A stretch of DNA of 64,000 nucleotides from Bacteroidaceae bacterium (GTDB lineage: Bacteria; Bacteroidota; Bacteroidia; Bacteroidales; Bacteroidaceae), in assembly GCA_017464345.1 (NCBI GenBank), contig JAFUAH010000015.1, positions 1 to 64,000 on the forward strand, in the 5' to 3' direction. Every line of letters starts with the position of its first letter. Position 1 is the stretch's first letter. Made by a program: the position numbers and the translations under genes. This document shows, piece after piece, positions 4,906 through 42,462 of this stretch. The notes under the pieces were generated by a model. The model ran no database searches. It was given only the letters and a program-made list of their open reading frames with translations, and was not told the origin of the DNA.

Positions 4906-5397
4906 ATGAAACGTATTGCATTGCTTCTTTTTATTCATCACTCTTCACTCTTCACTCTTCACTCTTTCGCCCAACTTCCCGGCATCACGCTGAAGACCAT
5001 GGACGGCCAGACGGTGAAGACCGACACCCTGAACAATCAGGGCAAGCCGTTCATCATCTCCTTCTTCGCCACCTGGTGCAAGCCCTGCAACCGCGAACTG
5101 AGCGCCATCCAGGAGGTCTATGAAGACTGGCAGGAAGAGACGGGCGTGAAACTCATTGCCATCAGCATTGACCAGGCGCAGAACATCAACAAAGTGAAAC
5201 CCCTCGTGGATGAACACGGATGGGAGTACGACGTTCTGCTCGACCCCAACAGCGACTTCCGCCGTGCGCTGGGCATACAGATGATACCCTTCACACTCAT
5301 CGTCGATGGCAAGGGCAAGATTGTGCACAAGCACAACGGCTACACCGACGGTGCAGAGACGGAACTCATAGAGAAAGTACGCGAACTCACAAAGTGA
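4906..5397 (+). CDS. Periplasmic TlpA-like thioredoxin
   Basis: 163 aa: signal peptide to about residue 23 (ending SFAQ), then an AhpC/TSA-Redoxin (TlpA) fold. The redox motif W-C-K-P-C is C58-C61; the cis-proline segment IPFTLIVD and the GKIVHKHNGY strand are in the expected order. Likely a thiol reductase acting on exported proteins. It starts 18 nt after the first gene. The signal-peptide core is encoded by four 7-nt repeats (4941-4968), giving the odd H/S/L/F-rich hydrophobic segment. Confidence 0.85.
   Translation: MKRIALLLFIHHSSLFTLHSFAQLPGITLKTMDGQTVKTDTLNNQGKPFIISFFATWCKPCNRELSAIQEVYEDWQEETGVKLIAISIDQAQNINKVKPLVDEHGWEYDVLLDPNSDFRRALGIQMIPFTLIVDGKGKIVHKHNGYTDGAETELIEKVRELTK
4941..4968 (+). 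repeat. Four 7-nt repeats in the TlpA signal-peptide region
   Basis: CTCTTCA three times, then CTCTTTC. Lies inside the open reading frame, so a one-unit change would put the mature protein out of frame. Confidence 0.85.
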
Positions 5398-5398
5398 G

Positions 5399-5419
5399 GA
5401 TTAGAGATTAGGGATTATG
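5399..5419 (+). repeat. Three 7-nt repeats across the start codon of the 5417 gene
   Basis: GATTAGA, GATTAGG, GATTATG; the ATG of the next gene is the end of the third unit. Confidence 0.7.
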
Positions 5420-7006
5420 AAGCGCATAGCACTTTTAATTTTTAATTTTTCATATTTAATTGCCACGCAGAGTGTGGCGCAGGTGACCGTGAGCGGTAGT
5501 CTGCAGACCGACATGCTCGTCCCCAACAAGGACGCGGAGACGGGATTTGTGAAGGGCAGTGCCAGTGGTGGGTATGAAGACGACTTCATGACCAACACCT
5601 ATGCCGACGTGGCCCTGCAGAGCAAGTACGTGGATGCAGGGCTGCGCTTTGAGTTCTTGGACTATCCCATGCCAGGCTTCAACGATGCAGCCAATCATTT
5701 CAAGGGCAGTGGTATCCCAAACGTCTATGTCAAGGGAAAACTGAAGAATCTGGAACTGACGGGCGGCTCATTCTACGAGCAGTTCGGTTCGGGCTTCATC
5801 CTGCGTACCTACGAGGAGCGGACGCTAGGCATCGATAACTCCCTCCTGGGCGGTCGCGTCGTCTATACTCCCTACCGGGGCATCACCCTGAAGGCTCTGG
5901 CGGGCGTGCAGCGCACTTATTGGGAGTGGAAGAAGAACACCGTCAGCGGTGGCGACCTGGAACTAAACCTCGACGAATGGATAAAGCCCATGCAGCGGGG
6001 AGGCACCCGATTGATGCTGGGAGGCTCGTGGGTGAACAAGCACGAGGGCGACGAGTTCGTCCTGGCCGACCCCACACACCGCTATAACTTCCCCAAGTTC
6101 GTCAATGCCTTTGACGTGCGAGCCAACCTCCAGACCCACGGCTTTGGTCTGCTGGCCGAATACGCCTTCAAAACACAGGACCCCACACGAATCAACGGTT
6201 ACGACTACGACTGCGGTCAGGTGGGTATGCTCTCAGCCTCTTATTCCAAGAAGGGTATGAGTTTCCTGGCCCAGGCACGGCGGTCGGAACTGATGGACTT
6301 CCGTAGCCAGCGCAATGTCGATCGCCTCTCCCGTGCGGCCTACATCAACCATCTGCCCGCCTTCACAATGGACCACACCTATGCCCTGGCTGCTCTCTAT
6401 CCCTACGCTACGCAGCCCGACGGCGAGTGGGCCGTACAGGGCTCGGCTGCCTATACCTTCAAGAAAAAGACCAAATTGGGAGGCAAGTACGGCATGACGG
6501 CCAAGGTGAACCTGTCGCACGTCCGCAACGACGGCCACACCTATTATCAGGACATCAACGTGCAGCTGGAACGTAAGTTCTCGAAGCAGTTCAAGCTGAA
6601 CCTGATGTACATGAACCAGCGCTACAACAAGACCGTCATCGAGGGCGAGGGCGGCATGATACACAGCAACATCGGCGTGGCCGAGGGACGCTATCAGTTC
6701 AACAAGAAGCTGACTCTGCGCATGGAGGTACAGTATCTGCATACGCCCGCCGACGACGGCGATTGGATATACGGTCTGGGCGAACTCTCCATCGTTCCGC
6801 ACTGGATGATAAGCCTCTCCGACATGTACAACCTGGGCAAGACCGATACGCACTACTATCAGGGTAGCGTGACGTACAACATCAAGTCCCACCGCATCCA
6901 GTTGGGCTACGTGCGCAACCGTGCCGGCTTCAACTGCTCGGGCGGCGTCTGTCGCCGTGTACCGGCCAGCCGGGGCGTGACCCTGTCGTATAACTATAAC
7001 TTTTAG
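5417..7006 (+). CDS. Outer-membrane beta-barrel protein, DUF6029-like
   Basis: 529 aa with a signal peptide (to about residue 22, before QVTVSGSLQ). The rest is alternating amphipathic strands (for example LTLRMEVQYL, RIQLGYVRNR) and the protein ends in aromatic F (LSYNYNF), the usual barrel-closing C-terminus. Bacteroidetes DUF6029 proteins have this size and are often next to TlpA/Omp28 genes, as here; the family name is from memory. Function unknown, possibly a channel or scaffold for the neighbouring redox proteins. The signal-peptide coding region contains a second 7-nt array (5432-5459). Confidence 0.65.
   Translation: MKRIALLIFNFSYLIATQSVAQVTVSGSLQTDMLVPNKDAETGFVKGSASGGYEDDFMTNTYADVALQSKYVDAGLRFEFLDYPMPGFNDAANHFKGSGIPNVYVKGKLKNLELTGGSFYEQFGSGFILRTYEERTLGIDNSLLGGRVVYTPYRGITLKALAGVQRTYWEWKKNTVSGGDLELNLDEWIKPMQRGGTRLMLGGSWVNKHEGDEFVLADPTHRYNFPKFVNAFDVRANLQTHGFGLLAEYAFKTQDPTRINGYDYDCGQVGMLSASYSKKGMSFLAQARRSELMDFRSQRNVDRLSRAAYINHLPAFTMDHTYALAALYPYATQPDGEWAVQGSAAYTFKKKTKLGGKYGMTAKVNLSHVRNDGHTYYQDINVQLERKFSKQFKLNLMYMNQRYNKTVIEGEGGMIHSNIGVAEGRYQFNKKLTLRMEVQYLHTPADDGDWIYGLGELSIVPHWMISLSDMYNLGKTDTHYYQGSVTYNIKSHRIQLGYVRNRAGFNCSGGVCRRVPASRGVTLSYNYNF
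5432..5459 (+). repeat. Four 7-nt repeats in the signal-peptide region of the 5417 gene
   Basis: CTTTTAA, TTTTTAA, TTTTTCA, TATTTAA, coding for the LLIFNFSYLI hydrophobic core. Confidence 0.75.
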
Positions 7007-35407: not shown

Positions 35408-35662
35408 CTAGGAGCCAATGGCCGTACCGTACTCATATAGGGTGTCGCTGGGTAGGTCTATCTGGTCGTTCCAATAGATGCAAGTGCGGCTTCCGTCGAG
35501 TTGCGCTTGGTGGAACAGACCATGCACAGCCAGCAGGTCTTGAAAAGCAGGTATCGTACGAATGTCATCCATCACGTCATATCGCACAGCGTAACCGTCG
35601 TCGAAGGTCACCAGTAACTGATAATCGTCGGTGGTCGTGAATGACTTTATACGTGGAATCAT
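35408..35662 (-). CDS. DUF2442 protein, second gene of a toxin-antitoxin-like pair
   Basis: 84 aa. TTTDDYQLLVTFDDGYAVRYDVMDDI is the compact beta hairpin unit of DUF2442 proteins. It follows the DUF4160 gene by 12 nt. DUF4160-DUF2442 pairs are common in Bacteroidetes and are treated as putative toxin-antitoxin-like modules; no activity can be read from sequence. A similar pair in the opposite gene orientation lies at 39323-39831. Confidence 0.7.
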   Translation of the reverse strand: MIPRIKSFTTTDDYQLLVTFDDGYAVRYDVMDDIRTIPAFQDLLAVHGLFHQAQLDGSRTCIYWNDQIDLPSDTLYEYGTAIGS

Positions 35663-35674
35663 GGCAGCAGGACG

Positions 35675-35926
35675 TTATAGTGGAGGTAGTTTTACGATAC
35701 GTTGTGTCTGCCACATGTTGAGCAACTCGTCTTGGTGTTCTGAAAGCCACTCCCGTACCAATGACTGTGCTCGAAGTGGCATGTCGCCCTCTGTCATTTC
35801 ATAGGTATGAATATCGAACACACCTACAGACTCATTGTATAGGGCATGGATGTGGGCGGGGTCATGCTCTTTTGGCTTAAAGAACATCTTGATTATAATT
35901 CCGTAGAAACGAGCGATTTCTGGCAT
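35675..35926 (-). CDS. DUF4160 protein, first gene of a toxin-antitoxin-like pair
   Basis: 83 aa starting MPEIARFYGIIIKMFF, with EHDPAHIHALYNE matching the conserved HxPxHxH segment of DUF4160. The frame is open further upstream (to 35986), but the promoter's -7 box sits at 35957-35964 and the transcript would begin near 35950, so the ATG at 35926 is the right start. Partner of the DUF2442 gene. Confidence 0.7.
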   Translation of the reverse strand: MPEIARFYGIIIKMFFKPKEHDPAHIHALYNESVGVFDIHTYEMTEGDMPLRAQSLVREWLSEHQDELLNMWQTQRIVKLPPL

Positions 35927-35956
35927 GATTGGCAGATAAATTCTTGGTTCTTGTGG

Positions 35957-35987
35957 CAAATTTACGAAATAATGCTGATGTGGCAAA
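35957..35987 (-). promoter_or_regulatory. Promoter of the DUF4160-DUF2442 pair
   Basis: TTTG (35984-35987), 19 nt, TAAATTTG (35957-35964) on the minus strand, a perfect consensus. It decides the start codon of the DUF4160 gene. Confidence 0.8.
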
Positions 35988-37815: not shown

Positions 37816-37884
37816 GTTTTCGGCCTCAAATTGATAAAATCCCGTCCATCTTTCCTCGTTTCTCGGGATTTGTTTGTATATTTG
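37816..37884 (+). promoter_or_regulatory. 69-bp promoter repeat, copy 1
   Basis: Identical over 69 bp to 39234-39302. It ends in TATATTTG, a -7 box, 29 nt before the antitoxin ATG; the -33 region is weak (TTTCC). Contains ATCCCG and CGGGAT 20 nt apart, a possible operator hairpin or repressor site. Confidence 0.85.
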
Positions 37885-37913
37885 CCTGCAGAAAACAATA
37901 GAAGTGTAAGTTT

Positions 37914-38165
37914 ATGGCAACAGTTTCGGCATCAATGCCTCGCCCCGTGACACTCAATGTCAGTCTTGAAGATACTTCAATGTTGCGAGATGTAAAGAAG
38001 GCCATCTCCATGTTACGCGGTGTAACTAAGGTAAGCGTACCGCGTACTAAGAAGTATGACATCACCAAAACCGCAGGTTTTCGTGAGGCCATGGAAGACG
38101 TAAAGTGTGGACGCGTGACACACTACGACTCTCTTCAGGACTTTTACAAAGAGATGGGGCTGTAA
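37914..38165 (+). CDS. Putative antitoxin of a YafQ-type pair
   Basis: 83 aa, 1 nt before the toxin gene. N-terminal beta strand TLNVSLEDTSMLRDVKKAISMLRGV followed by a basic linker and a C-terminal helix (GFREAMEDVKCGRVTHYDSLQDFYKEMGL) as in antitoxins that wrap a RelE-fold toxin. No strong match to RelB or DinJ recognised, so the call rests mainly on its position. Confidence 0.7.
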   Translation: MATVSASMPRPVTLNVSLEDTSMLRDVKKAISMLRGVTKVSVPRTKKYDITKTAGFREAMEDVKCGRVTHYDSLQDFYKEMGL

Positions 38166-38166
38166 G

Positions 38167-38442
38167 ATGGAATATCATGTAATCATTTCCTCACGCTTCA
38201 AGAAAGACTTCAAGCGTTGCATGAAGCGGGGGCTTGACATGCGTCTCATCACAACAGCAATGGACATGCTCAAGGCTACAGGTACGTTGCCGGCACAATA
38301 CCATCCCCATAAACTTGTTGGAGAAAAGCGTGGTATCTGGGAATGTCACATCCAGCCCGACTGGCTGATGACGTGGGAACAGAATAATCAAGAACTCACC
38401 CTCCTGTTCCTACAGACAGGTACGCACGCAGACCTTTTTTAA
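38167..38442 (+). CDS. YafQ-family mRNA interferase toxin
   Basis: 91 aa, RelE/ParE fold. SSRFKKDFKRCMKRG, LPAQYHPHKLVGEKRGIWECHIQPDWLMTWE and the terminal LLFLQTGTHADLF carry the YafQ signature, including the histidines and the C-terminal phenylalanine associated with ribosome-dependent mRNA cleavage in that family. Pairs with the preceding antitoxin gene. Confidence 0.85.
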   Translation: MEYHVIISSRFKKDFKRCMKRGLDMRLITTAMDMLKATGTLPAQYHPHKLVGEKRGIWECHIQPDWLMTWEQNNQELTLLFLQTGTHADLF

Positions 38443-38451
38443 TTACTTAAC

Positions 38452-38675
38452 CCTTACGCCCATGAACAGATAAACAAACGTAAAAACATATAGGAAGAAG
38501 CGTCCGCTTTGATTCTTGTTTACCGTAATTTAGCCAAAATTATTAAACTATCAAGATTGAAGAATGGATGCTCACGCCGATGGCGTGGGCTTTTACTCGT
38601 TGATGATAGTTGGGTGTTTGGCGACACCTCGGTAAACGTAGACGAAAGTAATTGTCCACGTTTCTTTTTTGTGTA
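38452..38675 (+). ncRNA. Structured RNA element, copy 1
   Basis: Rod-like series of nested helices: AAACGT (38476) with ACGTTT (38658); CGTC (38501) with GACG (38641); GTTTACCG (38518) with CGGTAAAC (38630); GCCAAA (38533) with TTTGGC (38617); ACTATCA (38547) with TGATAGT (38604); GCTCACGCC (38570) with GGCGTGGGC (38582). In the second copy (39834-40060) the middle helices have different bases that still pair, which is strong evidence of a functional RNA or single-stranded DNA fold. No known family assigned; the rod shape recalls 6S RNA. Confidence 0.75.
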
Positions 38676-38721
38676 CTTATTCGTAAGACATCTTATTATT
38701 AACTTTTAAAAATAAACAAAA

Positions 38722-39126
38722 ATGAAAAAACTTTTAGGAATGTTGCTGCTGACCTTAATAGCAGCAGTTAGTTTCACTCTCGTATCGTGTGGGGATGATG
38801 ACGATGACAAGAACAAGGCTGGTGAAGTGACCGAAATGTACGGCCTTTGGGTGTGCATCACCAGCGAAGACAGTTGGTCGGGCTATATTGCTAAAGACCA
38901 GTTTGTGGGAGAGGAACTTACTATTAACTCTGATGGAACATACACATCTACAGCAGAATCGTTCGGCTATACGGGAAAATGGAGCGTTTCGGGCAATTCG
39001 TTCGTAGCAAAAACCAGTTATGGCAAAACTATTACTGCTACATTTTCTGTAAGTGGTAACTACATGACTCTATCAGGTAAGACGAACGAGGGAGTTACCT
39101 TCAATTATCATTTTAGGAGGAAGTAA
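38722..39126 (+). CDS. Small lipoprotein, lipocalin-like
   Basis: 134 aa; lipobox TLVSC at residue ~22 followed by an acidic G-D-D-D-D-D-D-K stretch that favours surface or outer-membrane retention. MYGLWVCITSEDSWSGY, GTYTSTAESFGYTGKWSVSGN and YMTLSGKTNEGVTFNYHF look like a small lipocalin-type beta barrel. Lies 46 nt after the structured RNA. Function unknown. Confidence 0.65.
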   Translation: MKKLLGMLLLTLIAAVSFTLVSCGDDDDDKNKAGEVTEMYGLWVCITSEDSWSGYIAKDQFVGEELTINSDGTYTSTAESFGYTGKWSVSGNSFVAKTSYGKTITATFSVSGNYMTLSGKTNEGVTFNYHFRRK

Positions 39127-39156
39127 GGGCTCGACAGAATACTATACGTCAAAGAA

Positions 39157-39191
39157 CAAGGGCAGCCAGTCGGAGTAACTTGTTGCCCTTG
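39157..39191 (-). terminator. Orphan terminator hairpin resembling the araA terminator
   Basis: Stem CAAGGGCA...TGCCCTTG with the interior GTCGGAGTAACTTG. It matches the araA terminator at 46535-46569 at almost every position and is T-rich only on the minus strand, although no minus-strand gene precedes it. Treated as a displaced copy. Confidence 0.7.
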
Positions 39192-39233
39192 AATCATGGC
39201 TTTTGTCGGTTGCAATGAGTTGGAAAATGTTAG

Positions 39234-39302
39234 GTTTTCGGCCTCAAATTGATAAAATCCCGTCCATCTTTCCTCGTTTCTCGGGATTTGTTTGTATATT
39301 TG
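39234..39302 (+). promoter_or_regulatory. 69-bp promoter repeat, copy 2
   Basis: Identical to 37816-37884, ending in a TATATTTG box 20 nt before the DUF4160 ATG at 39323. It stands at the head of the second cassette as copy 1 does for the first. Confidence 0.85.
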
Positions 39303-39322
39303 TGGCACAAATATGTAATGCG

Positions 39323-39562
39323 ATGCCTACGATATTCATCTTTTTCGGATTCCGTTTCATGTTCTACTCTAACGACCACGAGCCAGTGCATGTGCATATT
39401 TTCAAGGATGGGAACGAGGCTAAGTACAACGTCACGGGGATAGAACTGATATACAATCACGAATTCAAGAAACAGGAACTGGCACTTATCGAATCCATCA
39501 TAGAAGAGAACAAGGAAATAATCATAGAACGCTGGAAGGCTCATTTTGACAAGAAGAAGTGA
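39323..39562 (+). CDS. DUF4160 protein, toxin-antitoxin-like pair
   Basis: 79 aa starting MPTIFIFFGFRFMFYSNDHEPVHVHIF, the HxPxHxH pattern typical of DUF4160. The start was placed after the promoter repeat; earlier codons in the frame would be upstream of transcription. Second gene (DUF2442) follows. Compare the pair at 35408-35926. Confidence 0.7.
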   Translation: MPTIFIFFGFRFMFYSNDHEPVHVHIFKDGNEAKYNVTGIELIYNHEFKKQELALIESIIEENKEIIIERWKAHFDKKK

Positions 39563-39573
39563 TAACGCAGGCA

Positions 39574-39831
39574 ATGATAACCAAGGTGTGGGTAGATGAG
39601 ACCCATGTGTATGCCGAAACGAAAGACGGCAGACAGGCTCGTTATGCATTTGCGGAATGGCCGCGTTTGGCTAATGCCACAGACGCGCAACGGCGTGACT
39701 TCTATCTCTCATACGGTGGCATTCATTGGCCGCAAATCGACGAAGACCTAAGTTTCGAGGGCATGTTCGAAGACAGCGGCGTGCTCTATGCTGCCGAGCC
39801 GGAAGCCCCTGAGTATAATGTAAAACAGTAA
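39574..39831 (+). CDS. DUF2442 protein, toxin-antitoxin-like pair
   Basis: 85 aa from ATG; a GTG at 39559 overlapping the preceding stop is an alternative. VWVDETHVYAETKDGRQARYAFAEWPRLANATDAQRRDFYLSYGGIHWPQIDEDLS fits DUF2442. The stop is 2 nt before the start of the structured RNA copy 2. Confidence 0.7.
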   Translation: MITKVWVDETHVYAETKDGRQARYAFAEWPRLANATDAQRRDFYLSYGGIHWPQIDEDLSFEGMFEDSGVLYAAEPEAPEYNVKQ

Positions 39832-39833
39832 AA

Positions 39834-40060
39834 CCTTACGCCAATGGACAGATAAACAAACGTAAAGACATATAGGAAGAAGCGTCCGCTTTGATTCTTG
39901 TCTTCTGAAAATCTGCAAAATTTAAGAAGTACACGAGAGTAAAAGGCTCAGACGCTCACGCCGATGGCGTGGGCTTTTACTCGTAGATGTGTACATAGGT
40001 TTTTGCAGATACCTCAGAAGACGTAGACGAAAGTAATTGTCCACGTTTTCTTTTTGTGTA
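39834..40060 (+). ncRNA. Structured RNA element, copy 2
   Basis: Same fold as copy 1: CGTC (39883) with GACG (40026); GTCTTCTGA (39900) with TCAGAAGAC (40014); CTGCAAAA (39913) with TTTTGCAG (40001); GTACAC (39929) with GTGTAC (39989); GAGTAAAA (39937) with TTTTACTC (39975); GCTCACGCC (39954) with GGCGTGGGC (39966). Outer and apical parts are conserved in sequence, the middle helices only in pairing. Confidence 0.75.
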
Positions 40061-40109
40061 AATATGACACAACCACTATTAATTAATAATCTTTTAAATA
40101 TAATTAACT

Positions 40110-40304
40110 ATGAAAAAAGCGACTTTAATGGGACTTGTAGGCAGCATTATTATACTGCTGATACAAGTGTATTATTTTATTGGGAGTTTCAGTGTCATCC
40201 AGTATGGCGGTGGCATTGTACACGTAGTTACTAATTTGCTGGGAATCGCAGCATGGTGTTGTATTGCCTATTTCTTTTTTACCCTTTATAAAAAGCAGAA
40301 GTAA
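40110..40304 (+). CDS. Small two-span membrane protein
   Basis: 64 aa with two hydrophobic stretches (residues ~8-25 and ~38-58) and a K-rich C-terminus. No family recognised. Lies 49 nt after RNA copy 2, the slot filled by a lipoprotein gene in the first cassette, and 2 nt before the next gene. Confidence 0.55.
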   Translation: MKKATLMGLVGSIIILLIQVYYFIGSFSVIQYGGGIVHVVTNLLGIAAWCCIAYFFFTLYKKQK

Positions 40305-40306
40305 TT

Positions 40307-40663
40307 ATGGAAGAAAGTAATGTATTTGAGGAGTTAGGAATCGAAACCGTAAAAGAGCAGAAGTCGCAAACTGACGAAAAGATTGAAGTCGGCACTAATA
40401 ATAGTGCAGAAAACATGCTGGAGTCAATTTCTTACTTTATACTGATTGGGGGAATTATCGTGACGGTTATTCTGCTATTTAGTATCTGCTTTATTCAGAA
40501 TCCTGCTTACCACTATTACAAGGAGTATATGTTTAACCCGACCGGATTCGGAATAACATGTGGGACACTACTTTCAACGCTGGCCTCATGGGCTGCCTTG
40601 AAAGTTTTTGCCAACATCTCTAAGACTCTGAAGGAGATTAAAAACCGGATGCCCAAAGCATAA
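40307..40663 (+). CDS. Small membrane protein with acidic N-terminus
   Basis: 118 aa: about 40 charged residues, then a membrane segment (ISYFILIGGIIVTVILLFSICF), a short loop, and a second span near GFGITCGTLLSTLASWAALKVF. Probably cotranscribed with the 40110 gene. Function unknown; the pair recalls small membrane proteins of toxin or defence modules only by context. Confidence 0.5.
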   Translation: MEESNVFEELGIETVKEQKSQTDEKIEVGTNNSAENMLESISYFILIGGIIVTVILLFSICFIQNPAYHYYKEYMFNPTGFGITCGTLLSTLASWAALKVFANISKTLKEIKNRMPKA

Positions 40664-40725
40664 TACATGTTTTCCGATGAGAAGCCATATAGTACATACT
40701 TCCTTTATTAGCCCACCGTCGTGCA

Positions 40726-40881
40726 CGCTATTAGGGAGAGGGGTGTGCTCATTAGTAGTGCGCAAGATTCCTCGCTATTAGCGAACAAACTTGCTGGCTA
40801 TTAGTGAGCATACCCTGTTGGCTATTAGCGAGACGAATTGTTCGCTAATAGCGAGGAAAGAGGCGGGCTAATAGTGAGTAG
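40726..40881. repeat. Cluster of CTATTAGCGA-type near-palindromes
   Basis: Six or more copies of a 10-13 nt near-palindrome (CGCTATTAGGGAG, CTCGCTATTAGCGAAC, GGCTATTAGTGAGC, GGCTATTAGCGAGAC, TTCGCTAATAGCGAGG, GGGCTAATAGTGAGTAG), spaced about 20-45 nt. CTATTAGCGA (40821-40830) and TCGCTAATAG (40841-40850) can form a 10-bp hairpin. It occupies the 300-bp gap between the small membrane protein and the ATPase gene. Confidence 0.7.
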
Positions 40882-40906
40882 CATGGTGCGTTAGTGGTTG
40901 GATAAA

Positions 40907-40940
40907 CAAGTGCGGCAAGCCAATCGGCTTTCCGCACTTG
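40907..40940 (-). terminator. Terminator of the ATPase gene
   Basis: CAAGTGCGG (40907-40915) with CCGCACTTG (40932-40940) plus an inner AAGCC/GGCTT stem; followed by TTTAT on the minus strand. Confidence 0.75.
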
Positions 40941-40963
40941 AATCTACATCCTCGTGGGGGGAA

Positions 40964-42354: not shown

Positions 42355-42400
42355 GAATATTCGAATAAAATACTATGAATGCTCATGTTTAGAAGAAAAA

Positions 42401-42434
42401 CAAGGGCAGCAAACCAATCGGCTTGCCGCCCTTA
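42401..42434 (-). terminator. Terminator hairpin at the outer edge of the R-M island
   Basis: CAAGGGCAGCAAACC against GGCTTGCCGCCCTT with T5 on the minus strand. Related to the araA terminator at 46535-46569 and followed (minus-strand upstream) by a copy of the araA 3' end. Confidence 0.8.
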
Positions 42435-42462
42435 ATTATAGGAGTTAATTACTAAGGCTCCG

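Follow-up and report, generated by a model that had tools for sequence, protein, structure and literature searches.

In the axe-txe toxin-antitoxin (TA) operon, a translated two-codon minigene acts in cis and raises translation of the toxin 15 nt downstream (PMC8708949). In the phylum to which our DNA belongs, the Bacteroidales-1, Bacteroid-trp and other motifs are candidate structured RNAs (PMC2864571). Here we describe an RNA that occurs twice in a 64,000-nt stretch of Bacteroidaceae bacterium DNA (contig JAFUAH010000015.1, positions 1 to 64,000; hereafter the window), where a TA-type pair precedes each of two ~190-nt structured copies. It represents an apparently undescribed RNA family of gut and rumen Bacteroidales, without an Rfam match, and is very probably a cis-acting leader RNA of secreted-protein genes.

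A first-pass annotation of the window had described two adjacent cassettes with the same promoter and RNA fold but different genes. The shared parts hold up: the two 69-bp promoter regions are identical (Table 1), and the two RNA regions (38449-38680 and 39831-40060) are 81% identical. Compared with dinucleotide shuffles, both RNA copies fold far better (z of -4.80 and -4.66; none of 200 shuffles did as well), and two oligomers of the RNA, 33 and 24 nt long, occur nowhere in the window but in these two copies (chance expectation 0.00). Pfam agrees with the assignment of YafQ, DUF4160 and DUF2442; the partner of YafQ, called an antitoxin, is named by its position and has no Pfam match at E<=0.1. 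With YafQ above the Pfam cut-off and a small gene adjacent to it, the first pair is a putative type II TA module, and we take DUF4160/DUF2442 to be a TA pair. The annotation had overlooked the start-stop mini open reading frames (mini-ORFs), the hairpin with a T-run that ends each RNA, and further RNA copies in the same genome.

Spread and fold of the RNA family

Profile searches yielded 164 distinct RNA copies (214 matches, 201 and then 164 after removal of those below 75 bits or 120 columns and of duplicates); the copy of the related genome G016 was merged with the window's copy 2, as their cores are identical. The source genome (1.9 Mb, 61% complete) holds the window's two copies, another at C21:24111-24340 (148 bits) and a degenerate one on C16 (53 bits). 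Genome counts were made by BLAST, which diverged copies escape. The RNA matches 26 of 61 genomes (our own and 60 relatives), with at most 8 matches per genome, and 22 of the 26 belong to the same genus. At the level of the order, which the titles of named contigs identify as presumably Bacteroidales, matches occur in 30 of 393 genomes (at E<1e-10 in 12), representing 25 of 207 genera; in a phylum-wide sample of 395 genomes (at least 5 others from the same order), the source genome alone matches. A pattern for the 3' hairpin occurs in at least 120 stretches of named GTDB contigs, and nearly all titles among the matches listed name uncultured Prevotellaceae, Bacteroidaceae or other Bacteroidales, with ruminants as a frequent source. 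The RNA is also present in two assemblies not titled as uncultured or as metagenome-assembled genomes (MAGs), Prevotella sp. tc2-28 (2 copies) and Prevotellaceae bacterium MN60 (1 copy), and may therefore be open to experiment. One RNA-carrying contig, L126, is titled Lachnospiraceae, outside the otherwise Bacteroidales range; it may be mis-binned or reflect a transfer out of this order.

The search of Bacteroidales genomes that the first-pass annotation had proposed thus finds the RNA widely, with diverse genes on both sides. The 69-bp sequence, which was proposed there as a general framework part, turned out to be local: it occurs in 2 of the 61 genomes, twice in our own and once in G016, where an RNA match starts 12 nt after it without an intervening gene. 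Rfam 15 gives no match at gathering score in the window, and at looser thresholds (E<=10 for the 3-kb stretch, E<=5 for loci L053, L161, L132 and L187) all matches fall outside the RNA copies. A phage or plasmid origin was considered and rejected: viral contigs contain no match to the hairpin pattern, and BLAST against phages and plasmids gave short, weak matches only. A 16-mer occurs in 6 stretches of viral contigs, in which the profile scan found no RNA.

To describe the fold we use the columns of a 175-column alignment, with covariation computed on 156 of 160 rows. The top signals of an unsupervised covariation scan are helices B (25-30/137-142), B' (37-41/126-130) and C (53-57/113-117). 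Doubly changed pair cells exceed the maximum of 300 partner permutations in all three (309 against 112 in B, 131 against 51 in B', 313 against 130 in C) and in helix F (7-11/72-76; 72 against 46). The paired fractions of B, B' and C are 0.91, 0.98 and 0.85, compared with permuted means of 0.62, 0.77 and 0.46, and B contains 21 pair types against a permuted mean of 16.1. Judged by covariation beyond permuted partners in B, B', C and F, this is a structured RNA. In F, B and C, G-U cells are more numerous than A-C cells (135 to 42, 32 to 15 and 9 to 6, respectively), the pattern that a plus strand acting as RNA should show; B' is the exception, with the order reversed (2 to 7). A short hairpin, H (120-123/132-135), which would put B' into a possible pseudoknot, reaches 14 doubly changed cells, where no permutation exceeds 6.

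In predicted folding, a partial transcript that reaches column 95 forms F, A and A2 (0.72, 0.70 and 0.78), and the full-length RNA forms B, B' and C (0.87, 0.89 and 0.78), E (0.48), D (0.57), T (0.19) and F (0.04). Helices D and T are predicted to have the 3' strand of T in common, and T overlaps B at two columns. Directly after the hairpin, the frequencies of the nucleotide T are 0.98, 0.99, 0.98 and 0.94.

The genes on either side and the start-stop ORF

For 149 copies the sequence continues for 400 nt or more behind the RNA, and in 143 of these an ORF of at least 60 residues starts within 200 nt. ORFs were called by script rather than by a gene finder and signal peptides by a hydrophobicity rule; by these means, the next gene is signal-peptide-like in 129 of the 143. 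In a like-for-like comparison (at least 150 residues, overlap on both strands removed), 109 of 120 next genes are of this kind, compared with 183 of 503 other genes from the same loci (Fisher 3e-29). The next gene starts 30-70 nt behind the RNA in 113 of the 143, at a median of 49 nt, and its product ranges from below 100 to above 1,300 residues. Pfam scans of genes in the slots before and behind the RNA cover the 25 commonest families; in the first 330 residues of the 143 products they find BspA-type LRR_5 (34), Dockerin_1 (10), divergent InlB repeats (4) and outer-membrane protein (OMP) barrels (4). In the interval from RNA to start codon, 2 of 134 copies contain TAnnTTTG, which we take to be the -7 motif of Bacteroidetes. 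As in an attenuator, a terminator-like hairpin with a T-run thus stands before the gene, nearly always without a promoter motif between them.

At the other end of the RNA, GCCT-ATG is conserved ~24 nt before the first modelled base, and this ATG is soon followed by a stop. The region was analysed in 155 of the 164 copies, of which 143 have a usable ATG; the best-placed one was picked blind to stops. When any ATG in the region is counted, a stop follows within 3 codons in 138 of 155 copies; in shuffles the mean is 16.3 and the highest count 30. From the best-placed ATG, the number of sense codons before the stop is 0 in 27 copies, 1 in 91, 2 in 19, 3 in 4 and 4 in 1; 137 of the 143 therefore stop after 0-2 sense codons, and 1 has no stop within reach. 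Stop trinucleotides keep to the frame: they number 27, 91 and 19 at in-frame offsets 3, 6 and 9, and 5, 1, 3, 12, 4 and 24 at out-of-frame offsets 4, 5, 7, 8, 10 and 11. All three stops are used (TAA 86, TGA 29, TAG 27), and the ATG-NNN-stop form occurs with 13 different second codons; because the second codon varies, there is no amino-acid code to read. The ATG is replaced by GTG in one copy (L097) and by ATA in several. The mini-ORF is present in 46 of 51 copies with a TA-type gene directly upstream and in 86 of 101 without, sits ~260 nt before the next gene, and is presumably translated. A longer leader peptide inside the hairpin was rejected on the alignment, because changes in hairpin-loop length shift the reading frame.

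Directly upstream, most copies of the RNA have either a TA-type gene or a promoter motif. Upstream sequence is sufficient in 152 copies, and in 51 of them a same-strand TA-type ORF ends within 150 nt: HepT 12, MNT 9, RelE/YafQ/YoeB 9, DUF2442 8, PIN 6, HEPN 5 and ParE 2. Pfam places 45 of these 51 above its cut-off (as NTP_transf_2, HepT, HEPN, DUF2442, YafQ, YoeB, PIN or ParE) and 2 below it, has no match for 4 (L053, L170, L203 and L062), and adds one case, RelE in L121. Five of the 45 are DUF2442, to which we presumptively assign a TA role. Forty-eight upstream ORFs chosen by eye served as seeds of the TA-type class, and they account for 46 of the 51 direct cases. Up to 3 kb on either side there are 77 TA-type ORFs including these 48; the 29 non-seed ORFs lie upstream on the same strand (23), upstream on the other strand (2) or downstream (4). 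When all 138 upstream ORFs, many of them spurious, are searched against Pfam, the families found are NTP_transf_2 (12), HepT-like (11), ParE (9), DUF2442 (7), YafQ (6), PIN_3 (5) and HEPN (5); among 138 control ORFs upstream of other secreted genes, no TA family is found in the 25 commonest (each with at least 2 members). TAnnTTTG at -120 to -35 is found in 68 of the 101 copies without a TA-type gene versus 2 of the 51 with one (Fisher 4e-15); searched on the opposite strand, these intervals contain it in 9 of 152 copies.

Viewed from the TA genes, we compared 30 loci each out of 50 YafQ and 44 DUF2442 matches listed: a full RNA lies behind 2 YafQ loci and 4 DUF2442 loci, and a partial RNA behind 2 more of the DUF2442 loci, some of the loci being cut by contig ends. 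Outside these sets, the RNA follows the window's YafQ and the DUF2442 gene of G001:C35, and a 39-nt match lies behind the YafQ of G026:C58. We infer that the TA-RNA association is far above expectation for few RNA copies among some two thousand genes, although most TA genes have no RNA. Nor are TA genes obligatory for the RNA, because 101 of 152 copies lack one directly upstream and most YafQ and DUF2442 loci examined lack the RNA.

Other small or mobile-type genes also occur in the upstream slot, some of them without an assignment, others being a PD-(D/E)XK transposase-family nuclease (L074 2136-3113, 1e-23), an ORF6N protein (L149 2593-3162, 8e-33) and a retropepsin-like aspartyl protease (L021 3672-4085, 1e-5, below cut-off). 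A 60-residue protein (MSNSE..., ending in ...VIAEHAEFQ) occupies it in two assemblies (L113 1128-1307 and L173 4100-4279); its L113 copy has no Pfam match, and it is possibly an unrecognised antitoxin-like gene. Dyads are found in 16 of the 68 promoter-type copies (shuffled mean 7.8, maximum 15), and no operator sequence common to them was seen.

A candidate attenuator and its rivals

We favour, at somewhat better than even odds, a bistable attenuator-type leader RNA that controls surface-protein genes by two-state transcription attenuation. Transcription would start at a promoter just before the RNA or enter from a TA operon in that position; the TA-type pairs of the window stand in the leader position, and thus their transcription should run into the RNA. 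The leader would open with the minimal ORF, in which as a rule no more than two sense codons separate ATG and stop. An early hairpin of helices F, A2 and A is predicted to form first and then to rearrange into a long rod of B, B', C and E. At the end of the RNA, the terminator-like hairpin T with its T-run would form, and the RNA 5' end can be paired with the 3' strand of T (helix D); since D uses this strand, T and the closed rod are predicted to be mutually exclusive. One state would end the transcript ~50 nt before the secreted gene, and the other would let the polymerase through; termination presumably occurs, with the rod as the read-through form. What can be read directly from the sequences in this model are the copies, the covarying helices, the mini-ORF, the T-run, the spacing, the dichotomy of TA-type gene and promoter, and the rarity of a promoter motif between RNA and gene. 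As to the input, we give ribosomes at the mini-ORF slightly less than an even chance.

A further proposal, which we regard as speculative and unlikely, is that the RNA gauges, throughout Bacteroidales, whether ribosomes can start and stop: the start-stop ORF would couple the translational state to the bistable terminator, and TA operons would both drive the leader and feed the sensor. Many of the neighbouring TA toxins belong to families that hit translation. If the proposal is true, a ribosome-gauging RNA would decide which surface proteins are made, and TA operon plus RNA would form a transferable circuit from stress to surface coat, in which the TA input and the surface-protein output are freely exchanged.

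Several points weigh against the attenuator. The majority of copies come from related ruminant MAGs, and partner permutation ignores the relatedness of the rows. Helix F finds its support one column off the first register, which itself failed (19 doubly changed cells, permuted maximum 21); pair types in B' (5) and C (16) are not above the permuted means (5.7 and 19.5); and helices A, A2, E, D and T are near-invariant, covariation neither supporting nor opposing them. The RNAfold equilibrium value of T, 0.19, would allow that the hairpin is mostly a non-terminator. Neither a TA-type gene nor the promoter motif stands directly upstream of 33 of 152 copies, and the footprint of a ribosome at the mini-ORF is expected to end a few nucleotides short of helix D.

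The alternative that survives best, although we consider it unlikely, is a leader for processive antitermination or mRNA stability, in which the RNA would recruit a factor, as do the EAR/epsC and JUMPstart leaders of surface operons, and its action would extend past its own hairpin instead of being that of a two-state switch. Surface-protein targets, some longer than 1,300 residues, and the compact fold, with helix H as a possible pseudoknot, would suit such a leader; however, other targets are shorter than 100 residues, a terminator-like hairpin is built into the element, and a start-stop ORF is not known to be part of the EAR/epsC or JUMPstart systems. Less probable again is a trans-acting small RNA with its own terminator, whose place before secreted genes would be incidental or selected for co-expression. 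Promoter-type copies do form a complete promoter-RNA-terminator-like unit, but the closeness of the next gene (median 49 nt), its secreted-looking product in 129 of 143 copies and the rarity of a promoter motif between the two (2 of 134) point to action in cis.

Exchange of genes, layout of the window and known systems

A comparison with relatives illustrates how far the neighbours of the RNA change. The window and G016 have an FGGY kinase and the promoter in common (92.4% along 1,746 bp up to the -7 element), promoter copy 1 being orthologous to the G016 promoter that directly precedes the G016 RNA. Promoter copy 2 matches G016 at 97.3% over 74 bp, and the block of RNA copy 2 (39829-40056) matches the RNA of G016:C6 at 98.2% over 228 bp; in G016 a few nucleotides separate these promoter and RNA blocks, and the sequence directly flanking the RNA block on both sides in the window has no match at the orthologous G016 locus. 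Behind RNA copy 1, 41 bp around the start codon are 85% like the G016 gene start, and the match of G025 to this RNA (76% over 291 bp) reaches to about the start codon, which suggests that the RNA can carry the leader and the first codons along when it moves. In G025, the neighbour and the order of promoter and RNA are as in G016. Since neither relative has a pair between promoter and RNA, the two unrelated pairs were either inserted there in our genome or lost in both relatives. A single local duplication with homologous genes, the case that the first-pass annotation had set against its own proposal, fails as an explanation: the upstream genes of the two units belong to different Pfam families, and the downstream genes have no blastp match to each other.

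Similar contrasts are seen across the family. Among 73 RNA pairs at least 85% identical, 64 have no similarity in either 300-nt flank (local score <25, a threshold chosen after the scores were seen, with some flanks cut by contig ends); if the RNA evolves slowly, this would heighten the contrast. Five of 158 loci hold two or three full RNAs within 8 kb, namely the window, L161, L187, L167 and L081, and in L161 the RNAs (1833-2059 and 5368-5594) alternate with PIN, HepT and secreted genes. The modular unit of the first-pass annotation therefore stands as a conserved RNA with unrelated TA families upstream and unrelated secreted proteins downstream, and falls as regards the 69-bp part. We propose that the promoter-RNA junction is a recurrent insertion slot for unrelated TA operons, which would bring leader and gene under TA transcription. 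Homologous recombination via shared RNA and promoter would suffice for the exchange, and this is the route that we prefer.

That annotation had also suggested a folded recombination site. A folded single-strand site of the integron attC type that swaps gene cassettes would account for the different gene content on both sides of similar RNAs, for the multiple RNAs in 5 of 158 loci, and for a within-genome identity (0.773; between genomes 0.731) slightly above the permuted-label maximum (0.752), and TA cassettes are common in integrons. We nonetheless judge it very improbable, and reject it as the main explanation: the directional, in-frame start-stop ORF with all three stops, the promoter motif, the T-run and the next-gene spacing fit a one-way RNA, and only 6 of 71 copies have their closest relative within their own genome, so that the sites are not homogeneous within a genome as those of homogenised integron arrays are. 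Least probable of all is an RNA that forms the 3' end of TA operons, as terminator or TA regulator with the secreted gene a bystander, since a TA-type gene directly precedes 51 of 152 copies but 101 lack one (68 of them having the promoter motif instead), the next gene is constrained in spacing and class, and the few YafQ and DUF2442 loci with the RNA (2 and 4 of 30, plus 2 partial) led us to reject a general TA tail.

Table 1. Features of the two units, in window positions
Feature	Position	Strand	Basis or remark
69-bp promoter region, copy 1	37816..37884	+	3' end is the TATATTTG element
Putative antitoxin, 83 aa	37914..38165	+	named by position before YafQ
YafQ toxin (PF15738)	38167..38442	+	Pfam, 7e-28
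Start-stop mini-ORF ATG-AAC-AGA-TAA	38462..38473	+	
Structured leader RNA, copy 1	38486..38672	+	profile match
Terminator-like hairpin and T-run, 3' end of RNA copy 1	38636..38672	+	
Secreted lipoprotein-like protein, 134 aa	38722..39126	+	signal-peptide-like start with Cys; Pfam matches all below cut-off, best DUF4923 (0.013)
69-bp promoter region, copy 2	39234..39302	+	homology to copy 1 starts here
DUF4160 protein, 79 aa	39323..39562	+	Pfam, 3e-19
DUF2442 protein, 90 aa	39559..39831	+	Pfam, 3e-16
Start-stop mini-ORF ATG-GAC-AGA-TAA	39844..39855	+	
Structured leader RNA, copy 2	39868..40057	+	profile match
Terminator-like hairpin and T-run of RNA copy 2	40021..40057	+	
Small membrane protein, 64 aa	40110..40304	+	single Pfam match, below cut-off, Cation_efflux (0.0067)
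Membrane protein, 118 aa	40307..40663	+	no Pfam match

Other features lie in or close to the two units. Within the 69-bp promoter, a dyad AAATCCCG...CGGGATTT (37837-37872) stands just before the -7 element and is possibly an operator; sequence in common with most other promoters of the RNA was not seen in it. A second DUF2442/DUF4160 pair lies ~2 kb to the left of the units on the minus strand (35408-35986), and the profile scan finds no RNA copy behind it. Directly after the second unit, 40704-40890 contains GCTATTAGCGAG-like direct and inverted repeats with 57-nt arms that are 74% complementary; this repeat field is followed by a hairpin (40901-40946) that is found again at 42395-42440.

The layout of RNA, TA genes and secreted genes is not described in the passages considered of the structured-RNA surveys PMC2864571 and PMC8040213, nor in the title or start of abstract of the papers listed in literature searches. 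Those motifs of PMC2864571 that carry Rfam numbers do not match the RNA; others of its motifs, such as the GUCCY-hairpin, carry none. The RNA thus adds to common gut and rumen bacteria a new structured family tied to genes for BspA-type leucine-rich repeat (LRR) proteins, dockerin-like proteins and lipoproteins, and to the known elements of leaders a conserved start-stop minimal ORF. It also gives TA modules a non-random home, and the location of particular TA operons becomes a testable question.

Among described systems, ribosome-mediated attenuators of the trp, mgtCBR and ermC type likewise have a short ORF, alternative helices and a terminator-like hairpin before the regulated gene; in the present RNA, however, the ORF is usually an ATG with 0-2 codons and a variable second codon, the targets are secreted, and TA-type operons occupy a 5' slot. 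Riboswitches are similar in being long, conserved, structured leaders with a terminator-like end, but the targets here have their location (secreted) in common rather than a pathway, and the RNA has no Rfam match. The EAR/epsC and JUMPstart elements are also leader RNAs of cell-surface genes; they differ in sequence and hosts and are not known to have a start-stop ORF, and the targets here are single proteins. Integron attC sites and cassettes share with our RNA a folded element between exchangeable genes and a TA-rich cargo, whereas our evidence speaks for a function as RNA, and the copies are mostly dispersed, with nearest relatives mostly in other genomes. The axe-txe minigene resembles the start-stop ORF in its ATG-codon-stop form, its place in a leader and its TA operon context; the passages considered mention no comparable RNA (PMC8708949), whereas in the family described here a structured RNA follows the minigene, and the next gene is ~260 nt away.

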